Source: a virus
IMG/VR virus record: IMGVR_UViG_3300029263_001128
Span: 1 to 54,934 of that record
Length of the DNA stretch: 54,934 nucleotides
Reading direction: 5' to 3' (one strand)
The notes below the pieces were generated by a model. The model did not search any database and was not told where the DNA came from. It was given only the letters and a program-made list of their open reading frames with translations. A program made the translations under genes and the position numbers. Positions 2,192-42,645 of the stretch are shown in pieces; position 1 is the stretch's first letter; each line of letters opens with the position of its first letter.

Positions 2192-2212
2192 GATAGAAGG
2201 TTCACACACCAC

Positions 2213-2431
2213 ATGTCGAGAACACAAGAATCCCCAGCTTCAGTAGAGGTTGGGGATTTGGTCGTCTTAAAGCACGATTATTTCCGGCAAGTAGGCTATG
2301 GGATAGTGTTACATCCCAGCATCATACCCCAGAAGTGCGTGGTATTCTGGTTGAGGCTGTCTATAAGCCAGACAGAGTTCTACAATGATTTAGAAATACC
2401 ACCTTGCGGTCCTCCCGCGCGTGCGTTATAA
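2213..2431 (+). CDS. Small SH3-like (VGDLV) protein
   Basis: 72 residues with the pattern VEVGDLVVLK, then GYGIVLH, VVFWLRL and NDLEIPP, which reads as the successive beta-strands of a small SH3/KOW-like barrel. Similar proteins occur at 7862, 9249, 12652, 13388 and 18240, so this is a dispersed paralogous family. Such barrels commonly bind nucleic acid or protein, but no partner can be named. The C terminus overlaps the promoter at 2404-2432. Confidence 0.55.
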   Translation: MSRTQESPASVEVGDLVVLKHDYFRQVGYGIVLHPSIIPQKCVVFWLRLSISQTEFYNDLEIPPCGPPARAL

Positions 2432-2432
2432 T
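2404..2432 (+). promoter_or_regulatory. Sigma-70-type promoter with perfect -10
   Basis: TTGCGG (2404-2409), 17-base spacer, TATAAT (2427-2432), overlapping the TAA stop of the preceding gene. It drives the lipoprotein-like gene at 2468. Confidence 0.6.
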
Positions 2433-2467
2433 AGTAGTATAAGCCAGATAATTTCTTTGGAGGCACT

Positions 2468-2791
2468 GTGACGTGGAAAACTTTTTTAATTGCATTCTCG
2501 GTAGGCTGTGGCGGCGACATTGCCTATTATGATAGTGGAGAGCCGCTGTATCCTATCGAAGAGTGGACGTGTTCTCATAATGAGTCCCGTTATTCCGCCT
2601 ATGTGGAGGCGTCTACTATTGATTTGGAAGAGTGGACGGCAATAGACTTCTTTATTCACGACCATGATAGCAGCTATAGCTTGCCAATGAAGAAGCACGA
2701 AGATGGCTACTGGCGAACCTCTGGGAACATCTATGAGCTTGACTGCAATTCTGACAATTTGGGCACCTTTTGGGTCTACTACGAATTGTGA
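2468..2791 (+). CDS. Small secreted protein, possible lipoprotein
   Basis: 107 residues starting at GTG, with GGAGG 5-7 bases upstream. The N terminus (MTWKTFLIAFSVGCGGD) has a short hydrophobic run ending in Ser-Val-Gly-Cys, an acceptable though not classical lipobox, so Cys14 may be lipidated after signal cleavage. The mature part is acidic, aromatic-rich and contains two further Cys, suggesting an extracytoplasmic beta-rich domain. It may alter the infected cell surface; no family is recognised. Confidence 0.55.
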   Translation: MTWKTFLIAFSVGCGGDIAYYDSGEPLYPIEEWTCSHNESRYSAYVEASTIDLEEWTAIDFFIHDHDSSYSLPMKKHEDGYWRTSGNIYELDCNSDNLGTFWVYYEL

Positions 2792-2941
2792 TTTCTAGTG
2801 TGTTTGAGAGTGCGCCTGTAGTGGCGGTTTTGACGATGCGGAGGTGGAAACTTTTAGCGCAAGAAAAAGTTGCGGCAAAATAGGTGGTAAAAGAAGATAA
2901 ATTTTTTGCGTGCTTTGATTATGAGCATAGGGGTTTACGGA

Positions 2942-2948
2942 CTATTTA
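2942..2948 (+). promoter_or_regulatory. CTATTTA element in the 2792-3002 spacer
   Basis: The heptamer lies 54 bases before ATG 3003. The spacer also holds a CTCCC/GGGAG inverted repeat around 2957-2980 enclosing TGTTATGTG, an extended -10-like word without a good -35. No gene is seen in this 211-base spacer. Confidence 0.3.
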
Positions 2949-3002
2949 AGTGTGCGCTCCCGTTGTTATGTGCTTGGGAGTCTATAAAGGAACTCTTATA
3001 AC

Positions 3003-3764
3003 ATGTTTAAACTAAAATCTATCTTATTTGCTCTCGTTTTTGCTTTTAGTAGCGTCGCTCGTGCTGAGGATGTCATCACTGAAGCCGTTTCAAATCAAAA
3101 TGTTGCTCTCATTGTCTCCGATGCGAGTATGTCTATGACGGAACGCAAGGTTCGCACTGCTGCGGTTCGCGTTTTCGCAAAGGGCGGTGGGCACGGATCT
3201 GGTTCTTACATCAAACATAAAGACTTCCACTTCATCTTGACAGCACAGCATGTCGCTGACGGCCCTGTTTATTCTGATTATGTCGTAAAGAAGGGCGAAG
3301 AGTCAAAGAAAGCAATCCTCGTTTGGTCTGACAAAACAACTGATATCGCCGTTCTTATGTTATTGACTCCATTTGAGACTATCACACCGATGTCTTTCAA
3401 GATAACTTCCGACATTCCAGAAGTGGGAACAGAGATTTCTTACTCTGGTTACCCCTCAAGCCACCAGTTGATGTCTATTCGTGGCAGAGTCGCTGGTTAT
3501 GAGCAGAAAAATGGTGCCGGAACTCAGATAATGCTACACACCTACGGGTGGTTTGGCTGTTCTGGTTCTGTAATCTACAATAAAAAAGAAGAAATCATTG
3601 GAGTTTTGTGGGGAGTTGATGTAGAATACTACCCTGGGATGGCTGTTGTTGAAGAGATGGTTTGGGTTATCCCGGTCCAGAAGTTAAAGATGGACGAAGT
3701 CGTAGAAAATACCTGTAAAACTAAGGGCACAAAGCAAGACCTATCTCGCTTTTGTAGAAGATAA
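3003..3764 (+). CDS. Secreted trypsin-like serine protease
   Basis: 253 residues. A Sec signal peptide (Lys-rich start, hydrophobic core to about residue 17, Ala-Arg-Ala before Glu22) directs export. The chymotrypsin-fold triad is visible: His83 in LTAQHVAD, Asp114 in KTTDIAVL, Ser187 in FGCSGSV, each in family spacing. The oxyanion context is GCSGS rather than GDSGG, typical of divergent bacterial or viral members. It probably works in the periplasm or outside the cell, for example on host surface proteins or receptors. It ends one base before the tagged gene block, so it may be co-transcribed with the putative injected proteins. Confidence 0.8.
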   Translation: MFKLKSILFALVFAFSSVARAEDVITEAVSNQNVALIVSDASMSMTERKVRTAAVRVFAKGGGHGSGSYIKHKDFHFILTAQHVADGPVYSDYVVKKGEESKKAILVWSDKTTDIAVLMLLTPFETITPMSFKITSDIPEVGTEISYSGYPSSHQLMSIRGRVAGYEQKNGAGTQIMLHTYGWFGCSGSVIYNKKEEIIGVLWGVDVEYYPGMAVVEEMVWVIPVQKLKMDEVVENTCKTKGTKQDLSRFCRR

Positions 3765-3765
3765 A

Positions 3766-4455
3766 TTGAAATTATTACTTGAAAATTGGAGAAAGTTTAT
3801 TAACGAAGCCGACGATTCTAACTTCACGGTCTCAATGGACCCTCAAGACTTTTTGACCCTAACCTATCAGGACGATGCTGACATCGAAGGCAGATCCGAC
3901 TACATTATTGGAATGCCGGGCGGTTTTGATAAGGCGAAAGCCGGTAAACTATCTCTCGTTATCAAGAAGTGTTACGGCGACGATGTAGATAAGGTAATTT
4001 CCCACGCCGGGCGCGCACGATCTATGGCTGCTATGAAGTCGAGCATCGAGCAAGTGCCCGTAATCTTGACTTTTGTTAATTGTGAAGAGCAGCCTGTTCG
4101 TGGAATGAGCAGCTTAAGCTTTACTACAGGCCGGATAGAGGGGCAATTTGATAATTCTTCTGTCTCGGTGGACAAAATAGGCCAACACGAATCCCAAGGC
4201 ATCCTTGATCTTGACACAAAGACAGAAATGTCAGTAGGAGAATTGCTAAAAGTCCTACGAATTGCTTCTTTGGAGAAATCCAGAAGCAACTACAGAATGG
4301 CTGACCTTGTTTTGGACCTAAACAAAGAATATAATTTTATGTTCTCGGGCGGACCTGAACAGGTGAAGGTTATAGTGAGAAACGGACTTCGTTTTCCGGG
4401 GTTTGAGTCAGATCCTCCCGAAGATTCCAATGTAAAAGTCTTAAATAAAGAATAA
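3766..4455 (+). CDS. Tagged putative virion-packaged protein 1 (function unknown)
   Basis: 229 residues beginning at TTG: the frame from 3766 reads (M)KLLLENWRKFINEA, matching the next five genes, so this start is chosen despite the rare codon. Ile12-Asn13-Glu14 is a prohead-protease-like site. The body has no recognised domain; it is mixed alpha/beta, with a beta-rich middle (residues 95-140) and a C-terminal VIVRNGLRFPGF stretch resembling the VLRNGLRPSP stretch of the ADP-ribosyltransferase-like protein at 6714, a possible distant link. The start follows the previous stop by one base. Confidence 0.7.
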   Translation: MKLLLENWRKFINEADDSNFTVSMDPQDFLTLTYQDDADIEGRSDYIIGMPGGFDKAKAGKLSLVIKKCYGDDVDKVISHAGRARSMAAMKSSIEQVPVILTFVNCEEQPVRGMSSLSFTTGRIEGQFDNSSVSVDKIGQHESQGILDLDTKTEMSVGELLKVLRIASLEKSRSNYRMADLVLDLNKEYNFMFSGGPEQVKVIVRNGLRFPGFESDPPEDSNVKVLNKE

Positions 4456-4457
4456 TA

Positions 4458-5099
4458 ATGAAACTCCTACTTGAAAATTGGCGTGCCTATCTGGATGAAG
4501 AGCAGATAAACGAAAAAATGATGCTGAAACCCGGTCCACAGGGCTGGGATCTCTACGCACAGATAGTTGGCGATGCCTATTTAGCTGCTCCCAGGTTTGA
4601 ACAGAGGGCAGTTCCGCATTTTCAAGCTATGATACCCTTTCTGGAAAAAATGTTTAAGAGGATCTCAAGCAGAGTAGACATAGAATTCGTTGATTACCAC
4701 CCCTACAACACAGCAGCAGAGCTAAGGGATTCGGTAAAGAGCACTGGAAAGATGAAAATAGCAACAATTGATGCTGAAAACGATGTATTTGATGAGATCA
4801 CAAACGCAAAATTCAGAGCGGTCCACGATTATATGTCTCACATTCAGGCAATTGGTTCAAGAGGGACTGAATTTGATTTGAGAGGGGAGCTTGCCTCCTA
4901 TAATGCTCACCTCAAAACAATGCCACAGGAGTCTATTCCTGCCTTATTTACCGAGATTGTCGGACAGACTTGTGCCTATCACGCTGGTGGTGGCACTTTC
5001 GCAGAACAGAAGATCTGTCTATTAGATGGCTTCGATTACACCAACCTTGGTGTTGTCGAGGGTTACGACATAGTTAATAAGGAATTGGTAAAGAAATGA
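4458..5099 (+). CDS. Tagged putative virion-packaged protein 2, possible metal-binding enzyme
   Basis: 213 residues: N-terminal MKLLLENWRAYLDEE (Leu12-Asp13-Glu14), then a helical domain. Residues about 115-150 contain FRAVHDYMSHIQ, then RGELASYNAH, a His-Asp...His and Glu...His arrangement suggestive of a metal site, followed by ALFTEIVGQTCAYH. I have the impression that this arrangement recurs in marine phage proteins of unknown role, but cannot verify it here. It overlaps the next gene by four bases (ATGA), indicating translational coupling within the tagged operon. Confidence 0.7.
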   Translation: MKLLLENWRAYLDEEQINEKMMLKPGPQGWDLYAQIVGDAYLAAPRFEQRAVPHFQAMIPFLEKMFKRISSRVDIEFVDYHPYNTAAELRDSVKSTGKMKIATIDAENDVFDEITNAKFRAVHDYMSHIQAIGSRGTEFDLRGELASYNAHLKTMPQESIPALFTEIVGQTCAYHAGGGTFAEQKICLLDGFDYTNLGVVEGYDIVNKELVKK

Positions 5100-5611
5100 A
5101 ACTACTACTTGAAAATTGGCGAAATTTCTTGACTGAAGGAGATGTCTTGCGTATAGGGGCGTCCAATAGAAATATAGAAAATCAAAAAAGTCCAGAACTC
5201 TATGGCAACTGCGGAATGCTTGCTGTAGCTCTTTTAGAAGAAGGTATTAAACGCAACAAACAAGTGCAGGTCGTTTTCCTTCATAGCGCCGAAGATCCCC
5301 TTGAAGACGAAGACTATGACTTATATCATGTTGCCATGTATTATAATGGAAAATATTATGACGATCGTGGAGAAACTACAGAAAAAGAAATGTCTAGCCT
5401 AGTCCCCCTCGGATTAACAACTCCACAAAACGAGGAACCCCGCCAAGGGAGAGACTATAATCTAGATTCTTATATAGTTGATGATATGCAAGGTCTTGAC
5501 TATATTTATAAAATAGTTGAGTCCCTTACAGGCTGGTCAAAAACTTGTGATGAATATAGGCAGAGGTCCATAAAATTTTGGGATGGAATAGACAATGAAA
5601 CTACTACTTGA
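5096..5611 (+). CDS. Tagged putative virion-packaged papain-like protease
   Basis: 171 residues: tag MKLLLENWRNFLTEG (Leu12-Thr13-Glu14), then a compact domain with YGNCGMLAVALLEEG (Cys39 at the start of a helix), DLYHVAMYYNGKYYDDRGE (His, then Asp). The order Cys-helix, His on a beta-strand, Asp on the next is that of papain-like or transglutaminase-like folds. The predicted role is cleavage or modification of a host protein after injection (inference). The last residues (NETTT) are encoded by the first bases of the next gene's tag read in another frame. Confidence 0.6.
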   Translation: MKLLLENWRNFLTEGDVLRIGASNRNIENQKSPELYGNCGMLAVALLEEGIKRNKQVQVVFLHSAEDPLEDEDYDLYHVAMYYNGKYYDDRGETTEKEMSSLVPLGLTTPQNEEPRQGRDYNLDSYIVDDMQGLDYIYKIVESLTGWSKTCDEYRQRSIKFWDGIDNETTT

Positions 5612-6248
5612 AAATTGGCGAAAGTTCTTGACTGAAAATGAGGCAGCTTACTTCCCTTGGTTAGAGGAATTAGAAAACAAGGGCGGAAAAGCCCTTATGA
5701 GTCCCGATTTTCAACAAGCAGGTTCGGGAGCATTCCGTGTTGTCTTCAAACCAAAAGGAGATGAGGAGCACGTCATCAAGCTATCGAAAGATCCTCGCAA
5801 CAATTGGATGAATAAGATAGAGTCTGAAACGGCCAACTCTTACCCTGATTTGTTCCCCAAGACATTTGCTCACGCTGATGACTGGGAATGGATTGTCCAA
5901 GAAGCTGTCGAGGTGTTGAGCCGAAAAAACGAACAACAAATGCGTGTTATGTTACAGAAGACTTTTCCAAACATTTATGTTGTCTTCAAGGGCGCAACTA
6001 TAAAAGATTATGAACTTTTTCTCTTATGGAGCGATATCGTAGATGCCGCCAAAGGCCCTTACGCAACAAAAGACCAAAAGATTTTTGATTTTGGAATAAA
6101 AAATGAAAAAGCCTTTATTCAACTTGCTTCAGCTATCTCTAGATTCAAAATAGACAGCGAAGATCTGGGTTATGGCAACATAGGGATAAATGAACAAGGA
6201 CAATTAAGGATCTTAGATGCCTCTGTGCTCTTTAGACCAAAGGAATAA
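5595..6248 (+). CDS. Tagged putative virion-packaged protein kinase
   Basis: 217 residues: tag MKLLLENWRKFLTEN, then a small kinase-like domain. Visible elements are a glycine loop AGSGAFRVVF (residues 42-51), the ATP lysine in VIKLSKD (Lys62), a hinge-like WIVQEAVEV, a catalytic-loop-like DLGYGNIGI (Asp190, Asn195) and ILDAS (Asp208) in place of DFG. The His of HRD is missing. T4 and T7 phages also use early protein modification, so phosphorylation of host targets right after injection is plausible. The first 42 bases differ from the 5096 gene at a single position, although the bodies are unrelated. Confidence 0.75.
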   Translation: MKLLLENWRKFLTENEAAYFPWLEELENKGGKALMSPDFQQAGSGAFRVVFKPKGDEEHVIKLSKDPRNNWMNKIESETANSYPDLFPKTFAHADDWEWIVQEAVEVLSRKNEQQMRVMLQKTFPNIYVVFKGATIKDYELFLLWSDIVDAAKGPYATKDQKIFDFGIKNEKAFIQLASAISRFKIDSEDLGYGNIGINEQGQLRILDASVLFRPKE

Positions 6249-6250
6249 TT

Positions 6251-6730
6251 ATGAAAATATTACTTGAAAACTGGCGGCGATTTATAAATGAGGATGTGCG
6301 AGTCACATTTAAAAAAGCAATTGATCTGGTCTGCCCTCCGGCAACGCAGGACTTGAAGCTTAACACAAAGAACCGTGATTCCGCAATTCATACTGAATAT
6401 ATCCAGTATGGCCCTTTAAATGTAGATAAGCCCGGTGACTACTGGGAGGAAATAGCAGATTATTGGGACTCAACCGAAGAAGCAGCCGAAGCTTCTAACT
6501 GTGGAGTTTGCACTGCTTTTGACATCTCTCCTCGGATGCTGGAATGTATGCCCGGAGAGACATCCGATGACGACGGGCTTCTCGGCTATTGCTGGATGCA
6601 CCACTTCAAGTGCCACTCTGCGCGAGCTTGTAGGACTTGGGCAAAAGGTGGCCCGATAGAAGAAGATTCAGTTTCTGCTGATTGGCAGGAGCGCTCAAAT
6701 ATTGGAGATAAAGATGAAACTCCTACTTGA
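6251..6730 (+). CDS. Tagged putative virion-packaged Cys/His-rich protein
   Basis: 159 residues: tag MKILLENWRRFINED, then an acidic domain. Residues 83-135 hold CGVC, a single Cys, and GYCWMHHFKCHSARAC with WAKGGPI after it, which looks like a zinc or metal site built from Cys and His. The closely packed motif suggests a conserved module, but I cannot name its activity. The C terminus (DKDETPT) is read out of frame from the tag of the following gene, a 17-base overlap. Confidence 0.65.
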   Translation: MKILLENWRRFINEDVRVTFKKAIDLVCPPATQDLKLNTKNRDSAIHTEYIQYGPLNVDKPGDYWEEIADYWDSTEEAAEASNCGVCTAFDISPRMLECMPGETSDDDGLLGYCWMHHFKCHSARACRTWAKGGPIEEDSVSADWQERSNIGDKDETPT

Positions 6731-7154
6731 AAACTGGAATAGGTTTTTGGCTGAAGCTGTAGAACTCCCTTCTGAATGTGAAGGTGAGGAAGGATATTAT
6801 CACTCTCTTCCCTCGTCTTTGATCAAGTCCGTACTAAGAAACGGACTCCGACCCAGCCCATCAGGGAGCGATTCAAAGTTCGGATTGGGTGAATGGTCTG
6901 CTGGCAAGTCTTTTATCTCGATGGGATATAGTAATGCAGTAAAGTGGCAAGTTCAGATAGAAGAGGCAACAGGTGAGCCTGCTGGCATTGTTCAGATAGA
7001 ACTGCCAGATGATTTTATAAATGCTCTGAAGCTTGACACACAGGCCGTAGATGACGGAGATCATTGTGCTTTCTATGTAGAAGAGGTAATTCCATCAAAG
7101 TTTATCACCCTGCTTGATTATGGCCCATCTGATTACTTTGAAGACGATGAATGA
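6714..7154 (+). CDS. Tagged putative virion-packaged ADP-ribosyltransferase-like protein
   Basis: 146 residues from ATG 6714 (GGAG 7 bases upstream). Tag MKLLLENWNRFLAEA, then GYYHSLPSSLIKSVLRNGLRPSPSG, SAGKSFISMGYSNAVKWQ and YVEEVIPSKFITLLDY. This succession (Tyr-His, a helix ending in Gly-Leu-x-Pro, a beta-strand with Ser/Ile, a late Glu before Ile-Pro) resembles the small RNA 2'-phosphotransferase/ADP-ribosyltransferase fold. T4 packages the ADP-ribosyltransferase Alt in its head, a direct functional parallel. Catalytic competence is unproven. Confidence 0.6.
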   Translation: MKLLLENWNRFLAEAVELPSECEGEEGYYHSLPSSLIKSVLRNGLRPSPSGSDSKFGLGEWSAGKSFISMGYSNAVKWQVQIEEATGEPAGIVQIELPDDFINALKLDTQAVDDGDHCAFYVEEVIPSKFITLLDYGPSDYFEDDE

Positions 7155-7183
7155 AGCTCCTAATTGAAAGTTGGCGCAACTAA
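7151..7183 (+). pseudogene. Orphan N-terminal tag (10 codons)
   Basis: ATG at 7151 overlaps the preceding stop as ATGA and reads MKLLIESWRN followed directly by TAA. It is the same tag as in the six genes before it but has no cargo, and it stops just before the [LI]-x-E site. It is best explained as the remnant of a deleted member or as a landing place where cargo can be exchanged. It may still be translated by coupling. Too short for standard gene callers. Confidence 0.6.
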
Positions 7184-7220: not shown

Positions 7221-7646
7221 ATGAAGATTACCAAAGCAAGACTAAAACAGATCATCAAGGAAGAACTTGAGAATGTAGTGGAGGACCGCCAACCAAAATA
7301 TAAAATCAAGGCTTCTGATGTTAGCAAGGCACGTAAGATCCTTAATTATGCTGGTCACGGCTATGCCCTTGACGATGAGGGTAATCTACAAGCAGACGAT
7401 AAGTCCGTTAAGCTGCTTATCCCGAGCGGGATCGGTGTTCGGAGTGTGGAGGAAAAATTAAATGAAGAACTCACCCGTCAAGACAAAACCGATGTAAAGA
7501 AGATGGTCAAGGACGAACTTGAGAAGCTGCTTAAGAAAAAGGATACCAAGGATCAGATGGGTGAGATTGCAAAGAGAATTCTAAAGAAGCTTTACAAGGA
7601 TCTTTCATTAGAGCATCCATACATTATTGACCGCATCAAGATTTGA
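7221..7646 (+). CDS. Helical protein with MKITK-class N-terminal peptide
   Basis: 141 residues, highly charged (Lys/Glu) and predicted largely helical. It starts MKITKARLKQIIKEEL; Ile12-Lys13-Glu14 is a potential prohead-protease site and the peptide parallels the 1796 protein. Three more DVKKMVKDELEKLL-like amphipathic helices follow, so it may be a scaffold or core protein of the head rather than an enzyme. It has its own CTATTTA element, unlike the coupled genes before it. Function not established. Confidence 0.6.
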   Translation: MKITKARLKQIIKEELENVVEDRQPKYKIKASDVSKARKILNYAGHGYALDDEGNLQADDKSVKLLIPSGIGVRSVEEKLNEELTRQDKTDVKKMVKDELEKLLKKKDTKDQMGEIAKRILKKLYKDLSLEHPYIIDRIKI

Positions 7647-17204: not shown

Positions 17205-17555
17205 ATGAAGAAGAATAGAAGATCAAAGTATAGATACAAGAGTATAATTAATAAATTATTAAATAATAATATCATAAATGAGAGTAACCTTACTTTCATT
17301 GATAGTATGTCTTTAGAAGATTTGATTGCTGTTAAATTAGAACTCTCAGCAAAACACATAAACAATAAGCTTTATGCTTTCAATCTCTTATCTAATACCA
17401 ATAGACTAGTTAAAGAAGCAATCATAAAGTTTGCTATCAGTGCTACTAACTCTAAAATGGATGCTGCTAGGTTTCTTGGAACTGACTATGAAACTCTACA
17501 CTCACTAGTTAGAGAATACAACTTACAGGAGTTCTTTGATGAAATTAATAATTGA
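17205..17555 (+). CDS. Fis-like helix-turn-helix regulator
   Basis: 116 residues, basic N terminus. The C-terminal 45 residues (AIIKFAISATNSKMDAARFLGTDYETLHSLVREY) follow the Fis/NtrC helix-turn-helix pattern: helix, Thr-Asn-x-Ser turn, AARFLG, then a recognition helix with Leu. It should bind DNA and may control phage genes. Its own promoter gives a leaderless-type mRNA. The stop lies 17 bases inside the next gene, giving coupling to the tagged ADP-ribosyltransferase-like protein. Confidence 0.6.
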   Translation: MKKNRRSKYRYKSIINKLLNNNIINESNLTFIDSMSLEDLIAVKLELSAKHINNKLYAFNLLSNTNRLVKEAIIKFAISATNSKMDAARFLGTDYETLHSLVREYNLQEFFDEINN

Positions 17556-18231
17556 AAACTTCAGAAAGTTCTTAGTAGAACAAAACTTTATTTCTGAGAT
17601 TCCGTTAGAACAAGATGAAGAAGGTAACGTCATCCTCTATCACGTATCCAGAGTAGATGACATAGAAGAGTTAGACCCTGACATCGCAGCAAGAAACCTT
17701 CAGAACTACACCACAGCAGAGTATAGAACCTGGGATAGACCCAGAGTTTTCTTTTTTACTCGTCTCGGACAAGAAGATATTGGCATTGGTCAGATACAGG
17801 GTATACCTTACCGTGTTAGACTAAAACCAGATCAACTCTACCCGATTATGGAAGACCCGGCAGGACTATCTTCCAAGCAAGAACAACAAAACTGGATGAC
17901 AGAGAACATTCCAGAGTTTGCTGAAAAGACACAAGAAGCACAGAAGTGTTCTAACTTTGAACGCTATGGCCAATACCATATTTGTTCTAAGACCCCAGAT
18001 TCAGATGGGTTATATTTTACTGATGAGAGGTTTGCAGGAAAAATGTTTCTTGTAAACAATCCTAAGTTTCATCACCTTAAACCAAACACATACGAAATGG
18101 TTGCACAACTATCAGAAGAGCGTTATAATAGTATAGGGTTCATTTATCCACAGAGTGGCGAAAAAGACAAACAGATCGTTGCTTTGTGGCGTAAGGTTCC
18201 AACAGAGAAACTAGATAAAGATTTTTATTAG
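17539..18231 (+). CDS. Tagged ADP-ribosyltransferase-like protein
   Basis: 230 residues from ATG 17539 (AGGAG 7 bases upstream; TTG 17536 is less likely). Tag MKLIIENFRKFLVEQ has Leu12-Val13-Glu14. Then VILYHVSRVDDIEELDPD, YTTAEYRTWDRPRVFFFT and a late Glu-rich region. Tyr-His followed by a beta-strand with Arg-Pro-Arg-Val-Phe-Phe is the style of phage ADP-ribosyltransferase-like proteins, comparable to the start of the Tpt1/ART fold. It is the only MKLLLENWR-type member outside the 3766-7183 block. Predicted to be packaged and injected (inference). Confidence 0.55.
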   Translation: MKLIIENFRKFLVEQNFISEIPLEQDEEGNVILYHVSRVDDIEELDPDIAARNLQNYTTAEYRTWDRPRVFFFTRLGQEDIGIGQIQGIPYRVRLKPDQLYPIMEDPAGLSSKQEQQNWMTENIPEFAEKTQEAQKCSNFERYGQYHICSKTPDSDGLYFTDERFAGKMFLVNNPKFHHLKPNTYEMVAQLSEERYNSIGFIYPQSGEKDKQIVALWRKVPTEKLDKDFY

Positions 18232-27547: not shown

Positions 27548-28824
27548 CAAAGAAAAAGATTTTGGTCTTATCGGATCACCCCCTATCCCCATCAGGGGTA
27601 GGAACACAAACAAAATATATGATTGAGGCTCTACTCAAGACCGGACGCTATCAGTTCGTTTGTCTTGGCGGGGCGATGAAACACGAGAACTACAGTCCTC
27701 AGAAAGTGGATCCTTGGGGTGACGACTGGCGAATTTTTCCCGTTGATGGGTATGGAAACCACGAGATTATCCGCTCTATTTTACAGAAAGAGCGTCCTGA
27801 CGCTATCTGGTTCATGACTGACCCGCGTTTTTATGGATGGTTGTGGGAGATTGAGAACGAAGTCCGCGCCAACATCCCAATGGTTTATTACCATGTCTGG
27901 GACAATTTTCCTGCTCCACATTACAATGCTAATTTCTATAGTTCCACTGATGTTGTGGCCTGCATCTCTAAAGTCACCTATCAGATTGTCAAAGAAGTAG
28001 CACCAGATGTTGAGTCTTGTTACCTTCCACACGCTGTAAACGAGACTTTCTTCCATCCTTCTAAGACAGACGAAGAAAAGAAAAATGAACAATTGATGCG
28101 TCAGCGCATTTACGATTCTTCCACAATCAAGAACAATAATAAAATGATCTTCTTCTGGAATAATCGCAATGCCCGCCGCAAACAAAGTGGCACACTTATC
28201 TGGTGGTTCAAGGAGTGGCTAGATAAGGTTGGACACGACAAGGCGACCCTCTTAATGCACACAGATCCACGAGACCCTCATGGACAGGATCTCCCCCACT
28301 TGATTGGTCACCTTGGACTTGAGAACGGTCAAGTGTTGCTTTCTACGAGAAAAGTTGCCCCCGATGAGTTAGCTAACCTCTACAGGATGTCCGACTACAC
28401 AATCAATATTTCAGATGCTGAAGGTTTTGGACTAGCAACGCTTGAGTCACTCTCTTGCGGGACTCCGATAATCGTCAACATGACCGGAGGGCTTCAAGAA
28501 CAGGTAACAGATGGCAAGAATTTCTTTGGCTTTGCCATAGAACCTGTGTCAAAGACAGTAATTGGTTCGCTACAGGTGCCCTACATCTATGAAGACAGGA
28601 TCTCGCAAAGAGACTTTGAGAAGGCCATGACCAAGGCATTGAAAAACCCTGCGAAGAAGTATAAGCAAATGTCTTCACAAGGCCGTAGACATGTGCTAAA
28701 ATCTTATAACTTTGAGACTTTTGAAAAGTCCTGGGTTGACCTAATGGACAAGACCATAGAAGAGCATGGTTCTTGGGAAACAAGAACCGGCTACAAACGA
28801 TGGCACCTAATGGAGGTAGCATGA
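27544..28824 (+). CDS. GT4-type glycosyltransferase 1
   Basis: 426 residues from ATG 27544. It shows a GT-B fold: LVLSDHPLSPSGVGTQTKYMIEALL at the N-terminal glycine loop, a central LLMHTDPRD strand, and NISDAEGFGLATLESLSCGTPIIV (the E-x7-E nucleotide-sugar site) in the C-terminal domain. It transfers a sugar from a nucleotide donor, keeping the anomeric configuration. It is coupled to the glutamine synthetase gene upstream and to a second GT4 gene downstream by ATGA overlaps. Confidence 0.85.
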   Translation: MTKKKILVLSDHPLSPSGVGTQTKYMIEALLKTGRYQFVCLGGAMKHENYSPQKVDPWGDDWRIFPVDGYGNHEIIRSILQKERPDAIWFMTDPRFYGWLWEIENEVRANIPMVYYHVWDNFPAPHYNANFYSSTDVVACISKVTYQIVKEVAPDVESCYLPHAVNETFFHPSKTDEEKKNEQLMRQRIYDSSTIKNNNKMIFFWNNRNARRKQSGTLIWWFKEWLDKVGHDKATLLMHTDPRDPHGQDLPHLIGHLGLENGQVLLSTRKVAPDELANLYRMSDYTINISDAEGFGLATLESLSCGTPIIVNMTGGLQEQVTDGKNFFGFAIEPVSKTVIGSLQVPYIYEDRISQRDFEKAMTKALKNPAKKYKQMSSQGRRHVLKSYNFETFEKSWVDLMDKTIEEHGSWETRTGYKRWHLMEVA

Positions 28825-30056
28825 GAAAAAAAGTTATTCTTAAGGGTCCACTTTTGACCCGTTCTGGCTATGGAGAACAGGCTCGCTTTGCTCTTCGTTC
28901 TCTTCGCTCCCGCGAAGATCTGTTTGATATTTTTATCCAGCCTTTATCTTGGGGGCAAACCTCTTGGTCTTGCGATATGGATGAGGAGCGACTTTGGATT
29001 GATCAAACAATTGAGAAGACTATTGGCCACATTCAACAAGGAGGTCAGTTTGACATTTCATTGCAGGTCACAATTCCTAACGAGTTCCAGCCTATGGCAC
29101 CCGTTAATGTAGGCTACACAGCCGGCATTGAGACGACAAAAGTCGCACACCAGTGGATTCAAAAAGCTAATGAGATGGACAAGATCATTGTTGTTTCTTC
29201 ACATTCCAAGCAGGTGTTTGAGAACACAGAATATGAAGCTACAAATAAAGAAACTGGAGAGCAAGTCACTTTAAGAACGCAATCTCCAGTAGAGTTTGTG
29301 AACTATCCAGTAAAAAGCCATGAGACACTCCCAGAGTTGGAATTGGGACTTACAACATCGTTTAATTTCTTGGCTGTAGCACAGTTCGGCCCAAGAAAGA
29401 ATTTACAAAACACCATTAAATGGTTTATCGAAGAATTCAGAGAAGACGATGTCGGTCTTATTTTAAAATCAAACATGGCAAAGAATTGTTTGATGGACAG
29501 GAAGAGACTTCACTCAGAGCTTACAAATTTTATAAGAAAACAGGGAGAGAGACAGTGTAAAGTATACCTCCTACATGGCGACATGACTGACGCAGAAATG
29601 CACGCGCTCTATAATGATAATCAAGTCCACGCATTTGTCTCTCTCCCTCACGGAGAAGGTTTTGGCCTTCCGCTATTTGAAGCTGCATATTCTGGACTCC
29701 CTGTGGTCACTGTAGGCTGGTCTGGGCAGCTAGATTTTCTTGTAGACACCGAAGGTCAAGAACAATTTTACAACGTCGCCTTCGACCTCCAGCCAGTCCA
29801 GAAAGAGGTTGTTTGGGATGGGGTTATCACCCCAGACTCAATGTGGGCGTATGCTCGCGAGACTTCTGCTAAAGAGCAGATGCGTCTTTGCTATGATCAC
29901 GAGGTCGCCGGAACCACAAGGTGGGATAACTCTGGAATTATAGAGCGCTTCTCTCAAGAGAAGATGTATAAGCAGTTTATAGAAGCTTTTTACGAAGAAG
30001 AAAAGTTTGAAGTTTCAGAATGGTTAGCCGAGCTAGGAGAAATTGAAACACAATGA
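28821..30056 (+). CDS. GT4-type glycosyltransferase 2
   Basis: 411 residues from ATG 28821 (ATGA overlap; the frame upstream is unlikely). GPLLTRSGYGEQARFALRSL begins the first Rossmann-like domain and FVSLPHGEGFGLPLFEAAYSGLPVVTV is the E-x7-E donor site. FLAVAQFGPRKNLQNTIKWF marks the inter-domain strand. It is similar to its upstream neighbour in length and motif but clearly diverged. Probably adds the next sugar of the same chain. Confidence 0.85.
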   Translation: MRKKVILKGPLLTRSGYGEQARFALRSLRSREDLFDIFIQPLSWGQTSWSCDMDEERLWIDQTIEKTIGHIQQGGQFDISLQVTIPNEFQPMAPVNVGYTAGIETTKVAHQWIQKANEMDKIIVVSSHSKQVFENTEYEATNKETGEQVTLRTQSPVEFVNYPVKSHETLPELELGLTTSFNFLAVAQFGPRKNLQNTIKWFIEEFREDDVGLILKSNMAKNCLMDRKRLHSELTNFIRKQGERQCKVYLLHGDMTDAEMHALYNDNQVHAFVSLPHGEGFGLPLFEAAYSGLPVVTVGWSGQLDFLVDTEGQEQFYNVAFDLQPVQKEVVWDGVITPDSMWAYARETSAKEQMRLCYDHEVAGTTRWDNSGIIERFSQEKMYKQFIEAFYEEEKFEVSEWLAELGEIETQ

Positions 30057-30886
30057 AGATCTTCTTTGTCGCTGACTTTTTCTTAAGAGACATCTTGGGC
30101 GGTGGTGAACTAAACAATCACGAACTGGTAAGGTTGCTTAAGACAAAAGGGTTTACGTCAAAAGAAGTTCAGAGCCATCTTGTTAACAAAGAGTGGATTA
30201 AAGAAAGAGACAACTTTGTTATTAGCAACTTTATCAATTTATCCGAATTGTGTAAAAATCAACTACTAAACAAAAAATACATAATCTATGAACACGATCA
30301 CAAGTATGTAAAAAATAGAAATCCATGCTTATATCCAGACTTTAAAGCACCAAAAGAAGAACTTATTAATTTAAACTTTTATAAAAATGCAAAAGCAGTC
30401 CTCTGTCAGTCTAGTTTGCATTTGGACATTATTCACAAAAACACTGGGTTAGATAATTTAGTCAATTTAGGCGGAAATCTATGGAGCACGGACTCGTTAG
30501 AGCACATGAGAAAGCTATGTGCACCGCCAAAAGAAGATAAATATTGCATTCTTGACTCCCACATACCACATAAAAATAAAGATGATGCAATAAGATATTG
30601 TAAAATTAAAAATTATAATTATTCTCTTGTGTCTGATTCGAATTACTACAATTTCTTAAAAAAAATGAGTTCAAATAGCGGGTTTGTTTTTTTTCCTAAA
30701 ACACCTGAAACTCTATCTAGGATTACTGTAGAAGCAAGAATGATGAATATGAAAACCATCACAAATAAAAATGTTGGCGCAATAAGCGAGCCTTGGTTTT
30801 CACTAAAAGGCGAAGAGCTAATAGACAGAATGTTTCTCAAAAGACAAGAAATAGCAGACAAGATAATAAGGATTTTAAATGAATAA
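30053..30886 (+). CDS. Divergent, shortened GT-B glycosyltransferase
   Basis: 277 residues, shorter than GT4 enzymes (about 350-420). IFFVADFFLRDILGGGELNNHELVRLL is the N-terminal glycine-rich motif, YIIYEHDHKYVKNRNP a conserved-looking mid segment, and VFFPKTPETLSRITVEARMMNMKTITN resembles the donor site with Glu-Ala replaced around E-x7-E. From about 30050 onwards the DNA is more AT-rich than the preceding glycosyltransferases. Donor and acceptor unknown. Confidence 0.7.
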   Translation: MKIFFVADFFLRDILGGGELNNHELVRLLKTKGFTSKEVQSHLVNKEWIKERDNFVISNFINLSELCKNQLLNKKYIIYEHDHKYVKNRNPCLYPDFKAPKEELINLNFYKNAKAVLCQSSLHLDIIHKNTGLDNLVNLGGNLWSTDSLEHMRKLCAPPKEDKYCILDSHIPHKNKDDAIRYCKIKNYNYSLVSDSNYYNFLKKMSSNSGFVFFPKTPETLSRITVEARMMNMKTITNKNVGAISEPWFSLKGEELIDRMFLKRQEIADKIIRILNE

Positions 30887-31628
30887 CCGATTTGTAATAA
30901 TTACTCCGTTTTATAATGTAGAGGAGTGGATTAGTCTTTGTGTAAAAAGCGTAAAAAAACAAAATTATGATAATTACGTCCATTATCTTATAGATGATTT
31001 ATCAACTGACAACACAACAGATAAAATAGAAGCACTTTCAAAAGACACAGACAAGATCTTTCTAGTAAAAAACACAGAAAAGAAATATGCTTTGAAGAAC
31101 ATTCATGACACGCTACAGTCCATTGACATAGCTGACAATGACATTGTCGTAATTTTAGATGGAGACGACTGGCTTGCGAGCAGTGATGTCTTGGAAAGGA
31201 TAAACAAAGAGTATCAAGAAACAAATTGCATAATGACCTATGGCTCTTATGTTGAATATCCCTCTTTGGAGAGAGGCAAGTTTGCCAAGAAAATTCCTAA
31301 TCAAATAATAGAACAGAGATCTTATAGAAGGCATCAGTGGATGTCATCTCATTTAAGGACATTTCGTCACAAGTTATGGAAGAGAATAGATAGAAAAGAT
31401 TTTATAAACGAAGAGACAGGCAATTTTGTAAAAGCAGCATGGGATTTGGCTTTTGTTTTCCCGATGTTGGAGATGGCTGGCCACAGGGCTCACTACATTA
31501 AGGACATCTTATACATGTACAACCGTAGCAATCCTCTCAATGAAGATAAGGTTGACCACCCTCTACAATTATCTGAAGAGGCGCAAGTCAGAAGAAGACA
31601 TCCTTACCAGTTAATAGAGGAAATATAA
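30879..31628 (+). CDS. GT2-family glycosyltransferase
   Basis: 249 residues. FVIITPFYNVEEWISLCVKSVKKQ, HYLIDDLSTDNTTDKIE and DNDIVVILDGDDWLAS (the DxD metal site) are diagnostic of GT-A family 2, with inversion of the anomeric carbon. The C-terminal HLRTFRHKLWKRI and AWDLAFVFPMLEMAG complete the domain. No membrane helices, so it is cytoplasmic. It overlaps both neighbours by one to eight bases. Confidence 0.9.
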   Translation: MNNRFVIITPFYNVEEWISLCVKSVKKQNYDNYVHYLIDDLSTDNTTDKIEALSKDTDKIFLVKNTEKKYALKNIHDTLQSIDIADNDIVVILDGDDWLASSDVLERINKEYQETNCIMTYGSYVEYPSLERGKFAKKIPNQIIEQRSYRRHQWMSSHLRTFRHKLWKRIDRKDFINEETGNFVKAAWDLAFVFPMLEMAGHRAHYIKDILYMYNRSNPLNEDKVDHPLQLSEEAQVRRRHPYQLIEEI

Positions 31629-33259
31629 TGAGAATCCTTGGACTAATGTCAAGCCATGATTGCTCTTTTGCAATTTTAGACAAAGGAATCCCAGTGTTCC
31701 ACGCGGAATTAGAAAGATACGTTAGAAAAAAAGAACCAGAGGGCGATCCCTTTGCTTTTTTTCAAGATGTGTGTGGACAAGATGCCTGGAAACAAATTGA
31801 TGCGATAACTGCTTGTCATGGTTTTGTGGAGCATATGAGGAGCAATTTTCCAGATGGTTTCGAAAAACTTATGGAAATTGTAAAGAATAATAACATTCCG
31901 TTTTACAGCGTAGGACATCACCAGAGCCATGCCGCAAACGCTTTTTATTCTAGCAACTTTAAAGAAGCACTGGTGGTGACTCTTGATGGCGGCGGCCTGG
32001 ATCTAGCGTCAGATAACTCTTCTATTATTCCCACCTCTTTTACTGTGTGGGATGGGGAAGATAAAAAGCTAAGGAATGTTTCAATAACTCACAGCGAATT
32101 ATTAAACATTGGTTTTGCTTGGCAAAGGGTCACAAGACTTGTTTTTGGCCTTTCTGCTGGCTACCCAAAGGGCAACCAAGCAGGAACAGTCATGGCAATG
32201 GCTTGCATGGGAGACGCAGACAAATATTTGGATTATTTTGAAAAATTTAATTTTACCAATAGTTCTTTTCACGTTGATAGTCCTGAAAGTGAAAAGTATT
32301 TTGATTTTGTAAAGATGCGAGAAATAGCCTCCAGATCCGAGCAAGATGCCTTTGATGTTGCGGCTGCTCTTCAGAAAGCAACTGAAAATAAAGTAAAGCA
32401 AATCTTTGATGTCCTTGTGAAACAAACAGATAGAAAACTTCTTTGTCTCTCTGGAGGCGTTTTTTTGAATTCTGTAATGACAGGTAAATTATACGAATGG
32501 TATAAAGACAAATTTGAAGAAATTTATGTGTGTCCTGTCTCATACGACGCTGGGATTTCTATAGGGTCCGCACAATTTGTGTGGCACCACGTAATGAAAA
32601 AACCCAGAATTGAATGGAAAAACAATGCAACTCCTTTTCTAGGAGAAACTTATGAAACAACAGCTATAGAAAAAGCTCTTGCATCTATGATCTATATTGA
32701 TGGCAAAGATTTAAAAGTCACCAACGCTGGCATAGACGAAATAATAGACTTACTAGATGGCCAAAACATCATCTCTGTATTTTCAGGACCGTCCGAGTCG
32801 GGACGCCGTGCTTTAGGAAACAGAAGTATTATCGCCGATCCTAGGCGCCTTGAAATGAAAGACACAATTAATGAAAAGGTGAAACATCGTCAATGGTATC
32901 GTCCGTTTGCTCCTTCAATTTTAAGAGAAAAGGTTTCTGAATGGTTTGAGATAGACATAGATAGTCCTTACATGTCTTACGTTATTGATTTTAAAGAAGA
33001 AATGAGAAATAAGGTGCCTGCCGTTGTTCACATCGATGGCACTGCTAGATTACAAACAGTCACAAAAGAAGATAATGGCTGGTATTATGAGTTAATAAAA
33101 AAATGGGATCAAAAGACGGGAGTGCCAATCATCTTAAACACTAGCTTCAATGATCGTGAACCAATTGTCGAAACTCCTGAACATGCTATCTCTTGTTTTG
33201 TCGGCACAAACATAGACTATTTATATTTTGTTGATGCAAAGATTCTAGTCTCTAAATAG
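31628..33259 (+). CDS. NodU/TobZ-family carbamoyltransferase
   Basis: 543 residues. ILGLMSSHDCSFAILDKG, VGHHQSHAANAFYSSNF, VVTLDGGGLD, LSGGVFLNSVMTGKL and PSESGRRALGNRSIIADPR are the motifs of the Kae1-like domain plus the C-terminal carbamoyl-transfer domain. It places a carbamoyl group, from carbamoyl phosphate via carbamoyl-AMP, on a sugar hydroxyl. The length is normal. It probably decorates the glycan made by the surrounding genes. Confidence 0.9.
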   Translation: MRILGLMSSHDCSFAILDKGIPVFHAELERYVRKKEPEGDPFAFFQDVCGQDAWKQIDAITACHGFVEHMRSNFPDGFEKLMEIVKNNNIPFYSVGHHQSHAANAFYSSNFKEALVVTLDGGGLDLASDNSSIIPTSFTVWDGEDKKLRNVSITHSELLNIGFAWQRVTRLVFGLSAGYPKGNQAGTVMAMACMGDADKYLDYFEKFNFTNSSFHVDSPESEKYFDFVKMREIASRSEQDAFDVAAALQKATENKVKQIFDVLVKQTDRKLLCLSGGVFLNSVMTGKLYEWYKDKFEEIYVCPVSYDAGISIGSAQFVWHHVMKKPRIEWKNNATPFLGETYETTAIEKALASMIYIDGKDLKVTNAGIDEIIDLLDGQNIISVFSGPSESGRRALGNRSIIADPRRLEMKDTINEKVKHRQWYRPFAPSILREKVSEWFEIDIDSPYMSYVIDFKEEMRNKVPAVVHIDGTARLQTVTKEDNGWYYELIKKWDQKTGVPIILNTSFNDREPIVETPEHAISCFVGTNIDYLYFVDAKILVSK

Positions 33260-33269
33260 GAAAATAGTA

Positions 33270-34055
33270 ATGCTATCTTGTGAAATGGTCGGAAGGCTCG
33301 GCAATCAAATGTTTATTGCAGCAGCAGCCCACTCCTTGGCCTTAGATAACGATGATCAGGTAATTTACCCGAATTCAATAGGCGGCATTTGCCCCACGCC
33401 AGATGAAACAATAGTCCATCGAAAAACCATATTCAGAAATTTACATTATACCAATGATCTATCTTTTTTAAAGTTTGTGTATTCGGAAAGCCCAAGCATG
33501 GAATTTAAAGAGATCGACTATAGAGAGAATCTTTTTATCAAAGGCTACTTCCAATCAGAAAATTATTTTAAGCACAACAGGGAACACATAATAAAACTTT
33601 TCTCACCTCAAAGAGAAATAGAAGAGTTTATAAACAAAAAACACAGTAGCCTCATTGATAGTAGCGAACATGTGTCAGTTCATGTTAGGCGGGGTGACTA
33701 TCTAAAATTAAGTGATTATCATAATGTCTTGGGAAAAGGATATTATCAAAAAGCTATGAAAGAATATGATGGAGCAAAATTTGTTTTTTTTAGTGATGAT
33801 ATCGATTGGTGTCGAGAGACATTCAAAGGCCGCAATTCTGTATTTATTGAAAAGCAGCCTGATGTAATGGATCTTTTTTTAATGTCAAAAATTACTCATA
33901 ACATAATAGCAAATTCTTCTTTTTCTTGGTGGGGAGCTTGGCTAAATAAAACTGAAAAGCAGACGGTTGTCTGTCCTAGTGAATGGTTCGGCCCCAAGAA
34001 CAGTCACTTGATTACAAAAGATTTAACACCTTCATCATGGAATGCTATAGTGTAA
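33270..34055 (+). CDS. Alpha-1,2-fucosyltransferase (GT11)
   Basis: 261 residues. MVGRLGNQMFIAAAAHSLAL at the N terminus, SVHVRRGDYLKLSDYHNVLG (the HxRRGDY donor-binding motif), FFSDDIDWCRE and IIANSSFSWWGAWLN are the ordered motifs of GT11. It would transfer L-fucose (or a related 6-deoxyhexose such as colitose) from the GDP-sugar. With the GT10 gene directly next, the cluster has two fucosyltransferases of different linkage. A CTATTTA heptamer lies 46 bases before its start. Confidence 0.9.
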   Translation: MLSCEMVGRLGNQMFIAAAAHSLALDNDDQVIYPNSIGGICPTPDETIVHRKTIFRNLHYTNDLSFLKFVYSESPSMEFKEIDYRENLFIKGYFQSENYFKHNREHIIKLFSPQREIEEFINKKHSSLIDSSEHVSVHVRRGDYLKLSDYHNVLGKGYYQKAMKEYDGAKFVFFSDDIDWCRETFKGRNSVFIEKQPDVMDLFLMSKITHNIIANSSFSWWGAWLNKTEKQTVVCPSEWFGPKNSHLITKDLTPSSWNAIV

Positions 34056-34074
34056 TTATCAAATAGGAATTTTT

Positions 34075-35001
34075 ATGAAAATTGAAGAGTTTATAGACAA
34101 CATTAAAAGAGACGACGAGGGGCATGTTGTTCTGAATCTAATAGATAACACCATCCTCCACACTAGCTACTTAGCGTCTGCTCTCCGTTGCAGTGCACCA
34201 AACCATGAAAGAGATCCCGATAACGTCCGCTATGTGAACGGGATGAGAGACTGGGACGGAATAACAGTCTTCACAGACAAAACGTTCCATTTGGCACCAC
34301 AAGTTACCAGCCCTATCAAGATTGCTTGGGTAGTGGAGCCCTATGACCTGCTGCCACAAATTTATGAGTTAGTTGTTAAATTTGAAGATGAGTTTGATTT
34401 TATCTTTACTTACGAAAAGACTCTTCTGGACAGAAATCCAAATAAGTATAAATTTCTTCCTTGCGACACATCAGGTATAGAAATAGAGAGCCACAAACTA
34501 CATCAAAAAACAAAGCTTGTATCTATGATCTATTCTGAAAAAACTTGGTTATTTGGCCATAGGCTGCGACATATAATAGCAAAAACATTAATACCTGAAA
34601 TGGGTTATGATAAGATTGATTTTTTTGGAAGAGGCACCACTACGCCAATTGAGTTAAAATCAGAAGGCACGAATCCCTACATGTTCCAGATAGCTATGGA
34701 GAATGCAAGAAGAGAAAATTACTTTGCTGATAAAATCTATGACTGTTTCGTAGCTGGAACAGTTCCCATTTATTGGGGTGCCCCTAACGTCGGAGATTTT
34801 TTTGATATGAGAGGGATTCTTTCGTTCGAGCACCCAGCAGAATTGAAAGAGATTCTTTTATCTCTTAACCAAGAGAAATATGAATCAATGTATGACGGCG
34901 TAAAAGAAAACTTTGAAAGAGTAAAGCACTATCTTCGTCCAGATGACCTTTTATACGACAGCATTATTGATCAACTAAGACTCAGAGGAGAATCTGCATG
35001 A
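34075..35001 (+). CDS. Alpha-1,3/4-fucosyltransferase-like (GT10)
   Basis: 308 residues. IAWVVEPYDLLPQIY and FIFTYEKTLLDRNPNKYKFLP lead to MFQIAMENARRENYFADKIYD, CFVAGTVPIYWGAPNV, which parallels the GT10 core FxxxxENS...YxTEKLxxxxxxGxVPVxxG. It would use GDP-fucose or a GDP-fucose-like donor as an inverting enzyme. No membrane anchor, as for bacterial GT10. It overlaps the next gene by four bases. Confidence 0.8.
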   Translation: MKIEEFIDNIKRDDEGHVVLNLIDNTILHTSYLASALRCSAPNHERDPDNVRYVNGMRDWDGITVFTDKTFHLAPQVTSPIKIAWVVEPYDLLPQIYELVVKFEDEFDFIFTYEKTLLDRNPNKYKFLPCDTSGIEIESHKLHQKTKLVSMIYSEKTWLFGHRLRHIIAKTLIPEMGYDKIDFFGRGTTTPIELKSEGTNPYMFQIAMENARRENYFADKIYDCFVAGTVPIYWGAPNVGDFFDMRGILSFEHPAELKEILLSLNQEKYESMYDGVKENFERVKHYLRPDDLLYDSIIDQLRLRGESA

Positions 35002-35687
35002 AAGACTATGATCCACTCAGAGAATACGCTTTAGAAAAATTAAAATCAGACGGTTTGATTGAAGATGCGTGGGGTGCAGTTGATCTATTTGAGAGAACAG
35101 TGGCGGAATACACAGGAAGCAAATATGCTGTTTCGGTGGACAATTGCACAGATGCAATTTTTCTTTGTCTGAAATATCTAAGGTGCGACCAGGAATCAGC
35201 AACTATTACGATACCGGAAAGAACTTATTGTTCAATTCCAATGACCATCAACAATGCCGGGTGTAATTACAAGTTTAAAGATTTTGAGTGGTCTGGAACC
35301 TACCAGCTTACTCCTTATCCAATTTATGATTCGGCCTTGAGACTAACTAAGGGGATGTATGTAAAAGACACCTTTCAGTGCCTATCTTTTCATAGGAGAA
35401 AGATTCTGAAACTAACCAAGGGCGGAATGATTCTCACTGATAATCTCGAAGCGGCTGAGTGGTTTAAGGCCGCTCGCTGCAAAGGCAGGCACCCTCACAG
35501 AAAAACCTTCTATAAAGATGAAAAGTTTGATACAATGGGGTGGAACATGTATTTACATCCAGAAGACGCTGCAAAAGCATATTTAATTTTAGAACAATTA
35601 CCAATCAACAACGAAGATGGAGGCGGAAGCAAATCTTATGACAATCTTACAAAACATAAAATTTTTCTTGAAAAAGAGACTCGCTAG
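34998..35687 (+). CDS. Compact DegT/DnrJ-like aminotransferase-fold protein
   Basis: 229 residues against 370-400 in typical DegT enzymes. TGSKYAVSVDNCTDAIFLCLKYL is the N-terminal PLP phosphate region, and LSFHRRKILKLTKGGMILTD has a lysine where PLP binds. Part of the large domain and the C-terminal domain are missing or reduced. It may be a minimal sugar aminotransferase or an inactive relative. No frameshift is visible; the ends overlap both neighbours. Confidence 0.65.
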   Translation: MKDYDPLREYALEKLKSDGLIEDAWGAVDLFERTVAEYTGSKYAVSVDNCTDAIFLCLKYLRCDQESATITIPERTYCSIPMTINNAGCNYKFKDFEWSGTYQLTPYPIYDSALRLTKGMYVKDTFQCLSFHRRKILKLTKGGMILTDNLEAAEWFKAARCKGRHPHRKTFYKDEKFDTMGWNMYLHPEDAAKAYLILEQLPINNEDGGGSKSYDNLTKHKIFLEKETR

Positions 35688-39023: not shown

Positions 39024-39038
39024 CTCGGAAAACCATTC

Positions 39039-41163: not shown

Positions 41164-41167
41164 CACC

Positions 41168-41491
41168 ATGAAAGAAATAAAAACTTACATCGTTGACATC
41201 GATGGCACGATTTGTTCCCTTACGGAAGGGGATTATGCCACTGCTGTGCCAAAAGTTAAAAGAATTGACAAAATAAACAGATTATACGATTTGGGTCATA
41301 AAATAATCTATTGGACTGCAAGAGGAACTGTGACAGGTTTAGATTGGACAGAAATAACTTATAAACAAATGTCTGATTGGGGTGTAAAATACACAGAGTT
41401 GAAGCTCGGTAAACCACATTATGACTTTTTTATTTGTGACAAAGCGTTCAACTCAGAGAATTATTTTAATATAGAGGTAAATAATGATTAA
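41168..41491 (+). CDS. Small HAD-family phosphatase
   Basis: 107 residues. TYIVDIDGTICSL has the nucleophilic Asp and acid/base Asp, IIYWTARGT is motif II (Thr), and KLGKPHYDFFICDKAFNS supplies Lys and the metal Asp. It resembles short capsule-biosynthesis HAD proteins that act on sugar phosphates. Sited directly after NeuB, it could dephosphorylate a nonulosonate phosphate. Stop and next start overlap by 8 bases. Confidence 0.8.
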   Translation: MKEIKTYIVDIDGTICSLTEGDYATAVPKVKRIDKINRLYDLGHKIIYWTARGTVTGLDWTEITYKQMSDWGVKYTELKLGKPHYDFFICDKAFNSENYFNIEVNND

Positions 41492-42641: not shown

Positions 42642-42645
42642 AGAC

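Follow-up and report, generated by a model that had tools for sequence, protein, structure and literature searches.

Genes of uncultured T4-like phages that share a 14-codon tag are, we conclude with considerable confidence, cassettes in which the tag, predicted to target the product to the capsid and to be cleaved off there, is joined to an unrelated cargo, and in which cargos turn over by exchange at the tags through a recombination pathway that we infer. The sequence studied, hereafter the window, is the whole of a 54,934-base virus record (IMG/VR IMGVR_UViG_3300029263_001128). In it, MKxLLENWRxFLxE forms the first 14 codons of six adjacent forward genes (3766–7154); besides this array there is an orphan tag copy at 7151 and a variant tag at 17539. 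The features, all on the forward strand (+), are as follows:

3766–3807 (+): tag 1, MKLLLENWRKFINE, with a TTG start; its cargo runs to 4455 and has no family match
4458–4499 (+): tag 2, MKLLLENWRAYLDE; its cargo, to 5099, is phrog_3170 (function not known)
5096–5137 (+): tag 3, MKLLLENWRNFLTE, left copy of a 41/42-nt direct repeat; ATGA overlap with the stop of 4458–5099
5138–5611 (+): cargo 3, a GNCG..YH..YYD protein with conserved Cys, His and Asp; its terminal NETTT is read from tag 4
5595–5636 (+): tag 4, MKLLLENWRKFLTE, right copy of the direct repeat, 42/42 nt against the single tag of a near relative; TGA 5609–5611 ends cargo 3
5637–6248 (+): cargo 4, phrog_4301, with a putative kinase-like fold (Foldseek)
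6251–6292 (+): tag 5, MKILLENWRRFINE; its cargo, of the CPPATQDLxLNTKNR family, runs to 6730, with its DETPT end inside tag 6
6714–6755 (+): tag 6, MKLLLENWNRFLAE, a swap point where homology to the relative stops exactly; TGA 6728–6730 ends cargo 5
6756–7154 (+): cargo 6, without family match
7151–7183 (+): orphan tag, MKLLIESWRN (10 codons, then a stop), without cargo; homology to the relative is back from 7193
7221–7265 (+): a second repeated leader, MKITKARLKQIIKEE, with a further copy at 1796
17539–17580 (+): diverged tag, MKLIIENFRKFLVE, in a gene that extends to 18231

A degenerate tag pattern matched five times in the window and in none of 100 dinucleotide-preserving shuffles. The preliminary description had reported that the first 42 bases of the 5096 and 5595 genes differ at one position although the bodies are unrelated, and this is correct: codons 1–14 are identical at 41/42 nt and the following 42 nt at only 10/42. 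All 11 comparable codons of these two tags are the same, against a mean of 3.9 for random codons, a score reached in none of 20,000 draws. The remaining 14 tag pairs in the window share 28–34 of 42 nt, so that near-identity is special to the 5096/5595 pair. Over all six tags, codons for the same residue are identical in 81 of 131 comparisons, compared with 50 ± 6 expected when codons are redrawn from window usage (0/2000 draws reached 81). The array region had no DNA-level match in cultured phages.

The tag recurs widely in viral contigs. A pattern of residues 1–9 matched at least 169 tags in at least 120 stretches of IMG/VR, many contigs having several, and gave 57 single matches in bacterial and archaeal genomes (257 billion bases), just two of which had [LI]xE at residues 12–16 in a reading frame of 40 aa or more. 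A slightly looser pattern, applied to 28 records, matched in 23 of them, up to nine times per record and always on the same strand within a record; a reversed control pattern matched once. The 169 tags among the matches listed were reduced to 163 by dropping those below 40 aa and to 130 by dropping cargo duplicates, and loci added via the cargos of the window and of locus L059 brought the distinct tag contexts to at least 346. Among the matches listed, 322 closed tagged proteins fall into 156 families (blastp, E 1e-5), 112 of them singletons; the short N-terminal leader is thus common to 156 families of unrelated cargo. A Pfam scan of 150 proteins (148 of the 156 family representatives, eight being left out, and two window proteins) gave few matches: three to NUDIX, two each to protein kinase and GNAT, and single ones to M23 peptidase, zeta toxin, RNase_T, HAD, ParB and others.

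The tagged genes of the window are tandem, co-oriented and of similar size, as might be expected of ancient tandem duplicates that diverged in their bodies and kept their 5' ends. We give this explanation next to no credence in view of the 156 cargo families with 112 singletons, the unrelated folds among them (NUDIX, protein kinase, GNAT, M23, RNase_T), the fall from 41/42 to 10/42 nt directly after the 5096 and 5595 tags, and the varying presence of cassettes among contigs with 95–99% identical flanks.

Related genomes do not keep a fixed order of cargo. In the near relative L183, two blocks are 85% and 88% identical in nucleotide sequence to the window: window 2210–5137 aligns with L183 3754–6680, and window 5584–6756 with L183 6629–7800. 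The one L183 tag (6639–6680) aligns with the 5096 tag as well as with the 5595 tag, and the 5096 cargo is absent there; the second block ends on the last base of the 6714 tag, beyond which the cargos differ. In a second group of loci, the flanks F88–F87 and F6–F11 surround one tagged cassette (L029, L048), two (L081) or four (L059), and the cargos of this group recur in other orders elsewhere (L072, L213, L206, L218). Upstream of the first L081 tag, L048 and L081 agree at 99/100 nt; at the second L081 tag they agree at 42/42 nt in the tag and 100/100 after it. Cargo exchange, loss and gain occur at tags, with junctions at or inside the tag.

Some tags at such places have no cargo. Orphan tags of the form MKLLLENWRG[IL], followed by a stop, directly precede a gene that has no tag, and 29 nt there are identical across five loci; in L078 and L292 the sequence downstream of the orphan tag is common and that upstream is not. 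Altogether, cargo-less tags sit at junctions at window position 7151 and in L078, L292, L065, L199 and L230.

Phage mosaics frequently break at gene borders. The tag might accordingly be a capsid-targeting peptide under protein selection only, turnover arising by illegitimate recombination at gene borders and only tagged cargo surviving, since any working replacement has to restore a tag. The flanks of 181 loci, left after removal of near-duplicates from 212 that had been fetched through tags and cargos, bear on this; 300 nt of upstream flank were queried, and mechanical ORF starts served as controls. Among pairs with upstream identity of at least 85%, which are phylogenetically non-independent, the downstream sequence differed in 86/121 tag pairs and in 77/535 pairs at other ORF starts; at 95% or more, the corresponding values were 21/33 and 5/124. 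Controls also differed often at lower upstream identity (68–75%: 304/337 tags, 1619/2327 controls; 75–85%: 243/277 tags, 1242/2184 controls), so the contrast between tags and controls is clear only above 85%, and once the lower identities are included 58% of all control pairs differ downstream, as selection on the protein only would allow. Against that explanation, upstream identity reaches the base before the ATG (several pairs agree at 99/100), no foreign ribosome-binding region having come in, and cargo-less tags lie at junctions. The markers and silent sites within tags, described below, also argue against it, and we regard it as unlikely.

Markers within the tag place upstream-like sequence at its 5' end. 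Where two loci have the same upstream sequence and different cargo (40 pairs, 21 independent), per-codon identity is 0.81–1.0 at codons 1–8 and about 0.5 at codons 12–13; where they have the same cargo and different upstream sequence (73 pairs, 26 independent), identity is at least 0.73 at codons 11–14. For 19 recombinants with two or more informative sites, again drawn from phylogenetically non-independent pairs, an upstream-like 5' part with a cargo-like 3' part fits better in 12, the reverse in three, and four are tied. Crossover intervals from the best-fitting triples spread over tag nt 0–42, but these triples are biased by design and the orientation test on all triples was relied on instead. 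Their variable order and an empty tag close to one end make the arrays look like those of integrons, and a dedicated site-specific mover of cassettes, integron-like or a homing endonuclease, would be one way to generate them; as the conserved block is coding sequence and the crossover intervals cover nt 0–42 with no single fixed base, we consider such a mover highly improbable.

The silent sites of the tag are conserved beyond codon usage. Between homologues less than 80% identical, the codons for a shared residue are the same at a frequency of 0.59–0.81 in tag codons 2–9 and 0.44–0.49 in cargo, compared with 0.45–0.57 at the 5' codons and 0.42–0.49 in the body of ordinary genes. For cargos 20–40% identical, the counts are 1911/2347 in tag codons 2–9 versus 8382/18368 in cargo, and for ordinary genes in the same range, leaving out the over-merged family 0, they are 161/360 versus 1410/3391. 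Tag nucleotide identity is thus higher than protein conservation would lead one to expect. Together with the variable cargo order, this upholds the earlier proposal that the tags act as a homology anchor for swapping cargo; that homologous recombination is the process is our reading of the junction positions. Such recombination between tag copies, within one genome or between co-infecting phages, is the likely mechanism. Passages of one account describe recombination in T4 evolution between repeats of only 2–10 bp (PMC9391042). A tag repeat of 27–42 nt would therefore be ample for a T4-like phage, assuming the same pathway operates here.

Silent conservation is uneven, with CTT at codon 5 in 47/49, CGA at codon 9 in 63/130 and codon 12 near usage, so that, in addition to exchange, the nucleotide sequence may itself be under selection. 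Across the 130 tags, codons 3–5, 9 and 10 show a strong choice of CTC, CTA/TTA/ATA, CTT, CGA and AAG, respectively, relative to cargo usage. Neither codon usage nor the upstream stop is enough by itself to account for this codon choice in the tag. Position-specific silent conservation could also come from selection on the 5' end of the mRNA, and ordinary genes too show a small 5' codon-conservation effect.

The 5' part of the tag also carries stops for the preceding gene. It had been claimed that the NETTT and DETPT tails arise from a TGA inside the next tag, and both ends were confirmed: the 5096 ORF ends at 5611 (TGA 5609–5611, tail NETTT) and the 6251 ORF at 6730 (TGA 6728–6730, tail DETPT), the TGA in each case being nt 15–17 of the next tag. 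Of 291 non-redundant tag contexts, 116 have the stop of the upstream ORF in the ATGA, 23 at the TGA of codons 5/6, 32 abutting the tag, 81 farther 5' and one elsewhere inside the tag; the other 38 showed no upstream ORF of 60 aa or longer. The overlap of stop and tag therefore recurs but is not a general rule. In every ATGAAR tag the ATGA supplies a frame +1 stop, and a frame +2 TGA at codons 5/6 is present in 191/291 contexts, of which the upstream gene uses 23. Because the first 17 nt comprise the start codon, the frame +1 TGA (ATGA) and often the frame +2 TGA (CTTGA), new cargo can be joined with the stop of the upstream gene kept, and a crossover 3' of nt 17 keeps both the upstream stop and the downstream start. 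The tail itself looks incidental, a by-product of the overlapping stop: among proteins homologous to that of 5096, those with a tag following in that frame finish in NETPT or NETPI, and the tail is absent in L213 and L231.

It is possible, if doubtful, that selection acts on the tag DNA itself as a site of exchange. The fixed nucleotide block (consensus ATGAAACTCCTACTTGAAAATTGGCGA), which combines a start codon with stops in both other frames, would then serve co-infecting phages as a common adaptor for trading payload cassettes, and cargo-less tags would be empty landing pads. The principal role of the tag is most likely at the protein level, in capsid targeting and processing, with its behaviour as a junction a consequence or a second role.

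At that level, the tag reads as a capsid-targeting propeptide of the T4 internal-protein type, which would imply packaging and cleavage. The N-terminal tag helix would bring the protein into the prohead core, an S77 (gp21-type) prohead protease would cleave it at residue 14, just behind [LI]xE, and the cargo thus released would be packaged and injected with the DNA, as are the T4 internal proteins and Alt. The tag on many unrelated proteins is thus probably a ticket for loading into the head and injection into the host. Since the search pattern fixed residues 1–9 only, residues 10–14 were unconstrained. Residue 14 is Glu in 97 and residue 12 is Leu or Ile in 99 of the 130 cargo-nonredundant tags; [LI]xE occupies residues 12–14 in 87/130, against a background of 1.27% per position, and of the 43 others, 12 have it displaced by one or two positions. 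In 31/130 tags it is absent from residues 12–16, which counts against the cleavage reading.

A Peptidase_S77 (gp21) match was found in 9/34 records of one set and 18/22 of another. Among the records given, all 18 tag-bearing ones of at least 139 kb encode the protease, including the window's 191-kb near relative; within the 54.9-kb window fragment there was no S77 profile match. A gp23 match was present in 8/16 records, and in the MCP of four genomes read LL[RK]E precedes the conserved mature part. In the head cluster of genome G026 a tagged gene (MKLLLEHWNRYLQEE) sits two genes 5' of the protease, which is followed by a gene beginning ...ATWRTFLNEG. In the predicted model of the 5595 protein the tag is a short helix, and residues 1–18 (pLDDT <50) lie apart from the kinase-like fold.

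A short helix apart from a folded cargo fits many signals, and with packaging deduced indirectly the tag might instead direct delivery or localization elsewhere than the prohead core, to a membrane, the baseplate or a phage compartment. We consider this decidedly unlikely, as [LI]xE shifts along with the end of the tag, the S77 protease co-occurs with it, one tagged gene lies within a head cluster, and T4 internal proteins have the same anatomy. In T4 gp23 the sequence at residue 65, the cut site, is SFLTE/A. According to passages of PMC9026906, T4 gp21 recognizes L/I-X-E, residues 1–10 of IPIII are enough for targeting, and processing depends on residues 8 and 10; an excerpt of PMC5694885 has T4 Alt cleaved at ITE-6 and LTE-619.

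Few of the window's cargos can be named. The 5096 cargo was considered as a papain-like enzyme and set aside; Cys, His and Asp are conserved, but the model has a pLDDT of 65 and a PDB search was empty. The best Foldseek matches of the 5595 cargo are APH(2'')-type kinases (best E 1.6e-5), with query TM-scores of 0.32–0.42 among the best 50 matches listed, and we call it kinase-like, which is not proven. By protein, the 6251 cargo has distant relatives in cultured phages annotated 'high potential iron-sulfur protein', a name that we do not trust. Its family, CPxATQ[DN] (6251–6730), is very common in viral contigs, with at least 584 confirmed relatives; besides the tagged ones, many have other leaders or none, so this cargo need not always be tagged. 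MENFDLKKF(I)xE-like leaders precede the CPPATQD cargo in L264 and L267. Cargo 6 (6756–7154) looks ADP-ribosyltransferase-like by eye, has no family match and, in the fetched loci, no homologue except in the window's own locus (L001). Two candidate cargo types were rejected: ADP-ribosyltransferase, with just one weak sub-threshold match (PF18760, E 0.006, L226), and portal protein, for which 1/150 matched PF04860 and two rescans of 17 candidates did not locate the member.

Other leaders and neighbouring genes were also noted. The second leader, M[KE]ITKxxLKxII[KM]EE, occurs in 80 contexts at 41 loci, with differing bodies and also an [IV]xE end; the window copy at 7221 looks joined from parts found in two L183 genes (near 8434 and 8652). 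The nearest cultured relative by capsid protein, Flavobacterium phage immuto_3-5A (L320, L321, L319), has different repeated leaders, MENFDLKKFLVEN, MKKQILSEQFxRMQxLAGIITES and MKKSxLxxxIKEx. Directly 5' of the array, window 3003–3764 encodes a trypsin-like peptidase (Pfam Trypsin_2) with, by eye, a likely signal peptide, and is kept in L183. Window 28000–47900 is a run of sugar/glycosyl genes, glycosyltransferase-, epimerase- and amidotransferase-like by eye from their translations.

The finding is a large variant of the T4 internal-protein/CTS system. In T4, the ipII and ipIII leaders are identical at 30/30 nt and the next stretch agrees at 10/30, so that, much as in the 5096/5595 pair, identical leader DNA is followed by unrelated sequence. 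Both systems have a short N-terminal leader with an [FY][LI]xE end on unrelated bodies, and a gp21-family protease in the same phages. Unlike the 10-residue T4 CTS, the tag has 14 residues, a different sequence and an extra ENWR part; by eye, agreement with MKTYQEFIAE, a very short peptide, extends to M-K and the [FY][LI]xE end only. T4 also differs from the tight overlapping arrays, the up to nine pattern matches per record and the 156 cargo families found here. In 1994, Repoila and colleagues (cited in PMC12373910 and PMC3012670) reportedly described T-even internal-protein polymorphism, in which related phages have different IP genes with a shared signal sequence. Passages of PMC12373910 likewise have T-even internal proteins varying between phages behind one signal sequence; here, many genomes together locate the junctions within the tag. 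The closest known system is T4 IPI, IPII, IPIII and Alt, with their gp21-cleaved CTS, to judge from passages of PMC9026906, PMC3012670 and PMC9958956. Polymorphic toxin and polyvalent protein systems, as portrayed in sections of PMC5512222, are alike in joining a constant delivery part to an exchangeable effector, with cassettes of alternative domains beside the main locus. They differ in that the constant part here is a 14-residue leader, predicted to be removable, and each cassette is a whole gene; in place of their full-length locus with downstream partial cassettes, tagged cassettes are complete, with their own start and tag. Among PubMed Central open-licence papers, looking for the tag peptide gave unrelated papers only, and looking for such tags or for exchange mediated by them listed none on this tag. 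As far as searched, four things are apparently new: the tag, the 156 families of its cargo, junctions located within it, and cargo-less tags.

If the reading is right, the tag would be a searchable label for proteins that are carried in phage heads and injected first, and the system a naturally replicated case of very short coding homologies steering phage gene exchange. IPI, IPII and IPIII of T4 each inhibit a different GmrSD restriction enzyme, according to part of PMC12373910, and by this precedent the 156 cargo families, for the most part unnamed, would be candidates for a role in counter-defence or host takeover.
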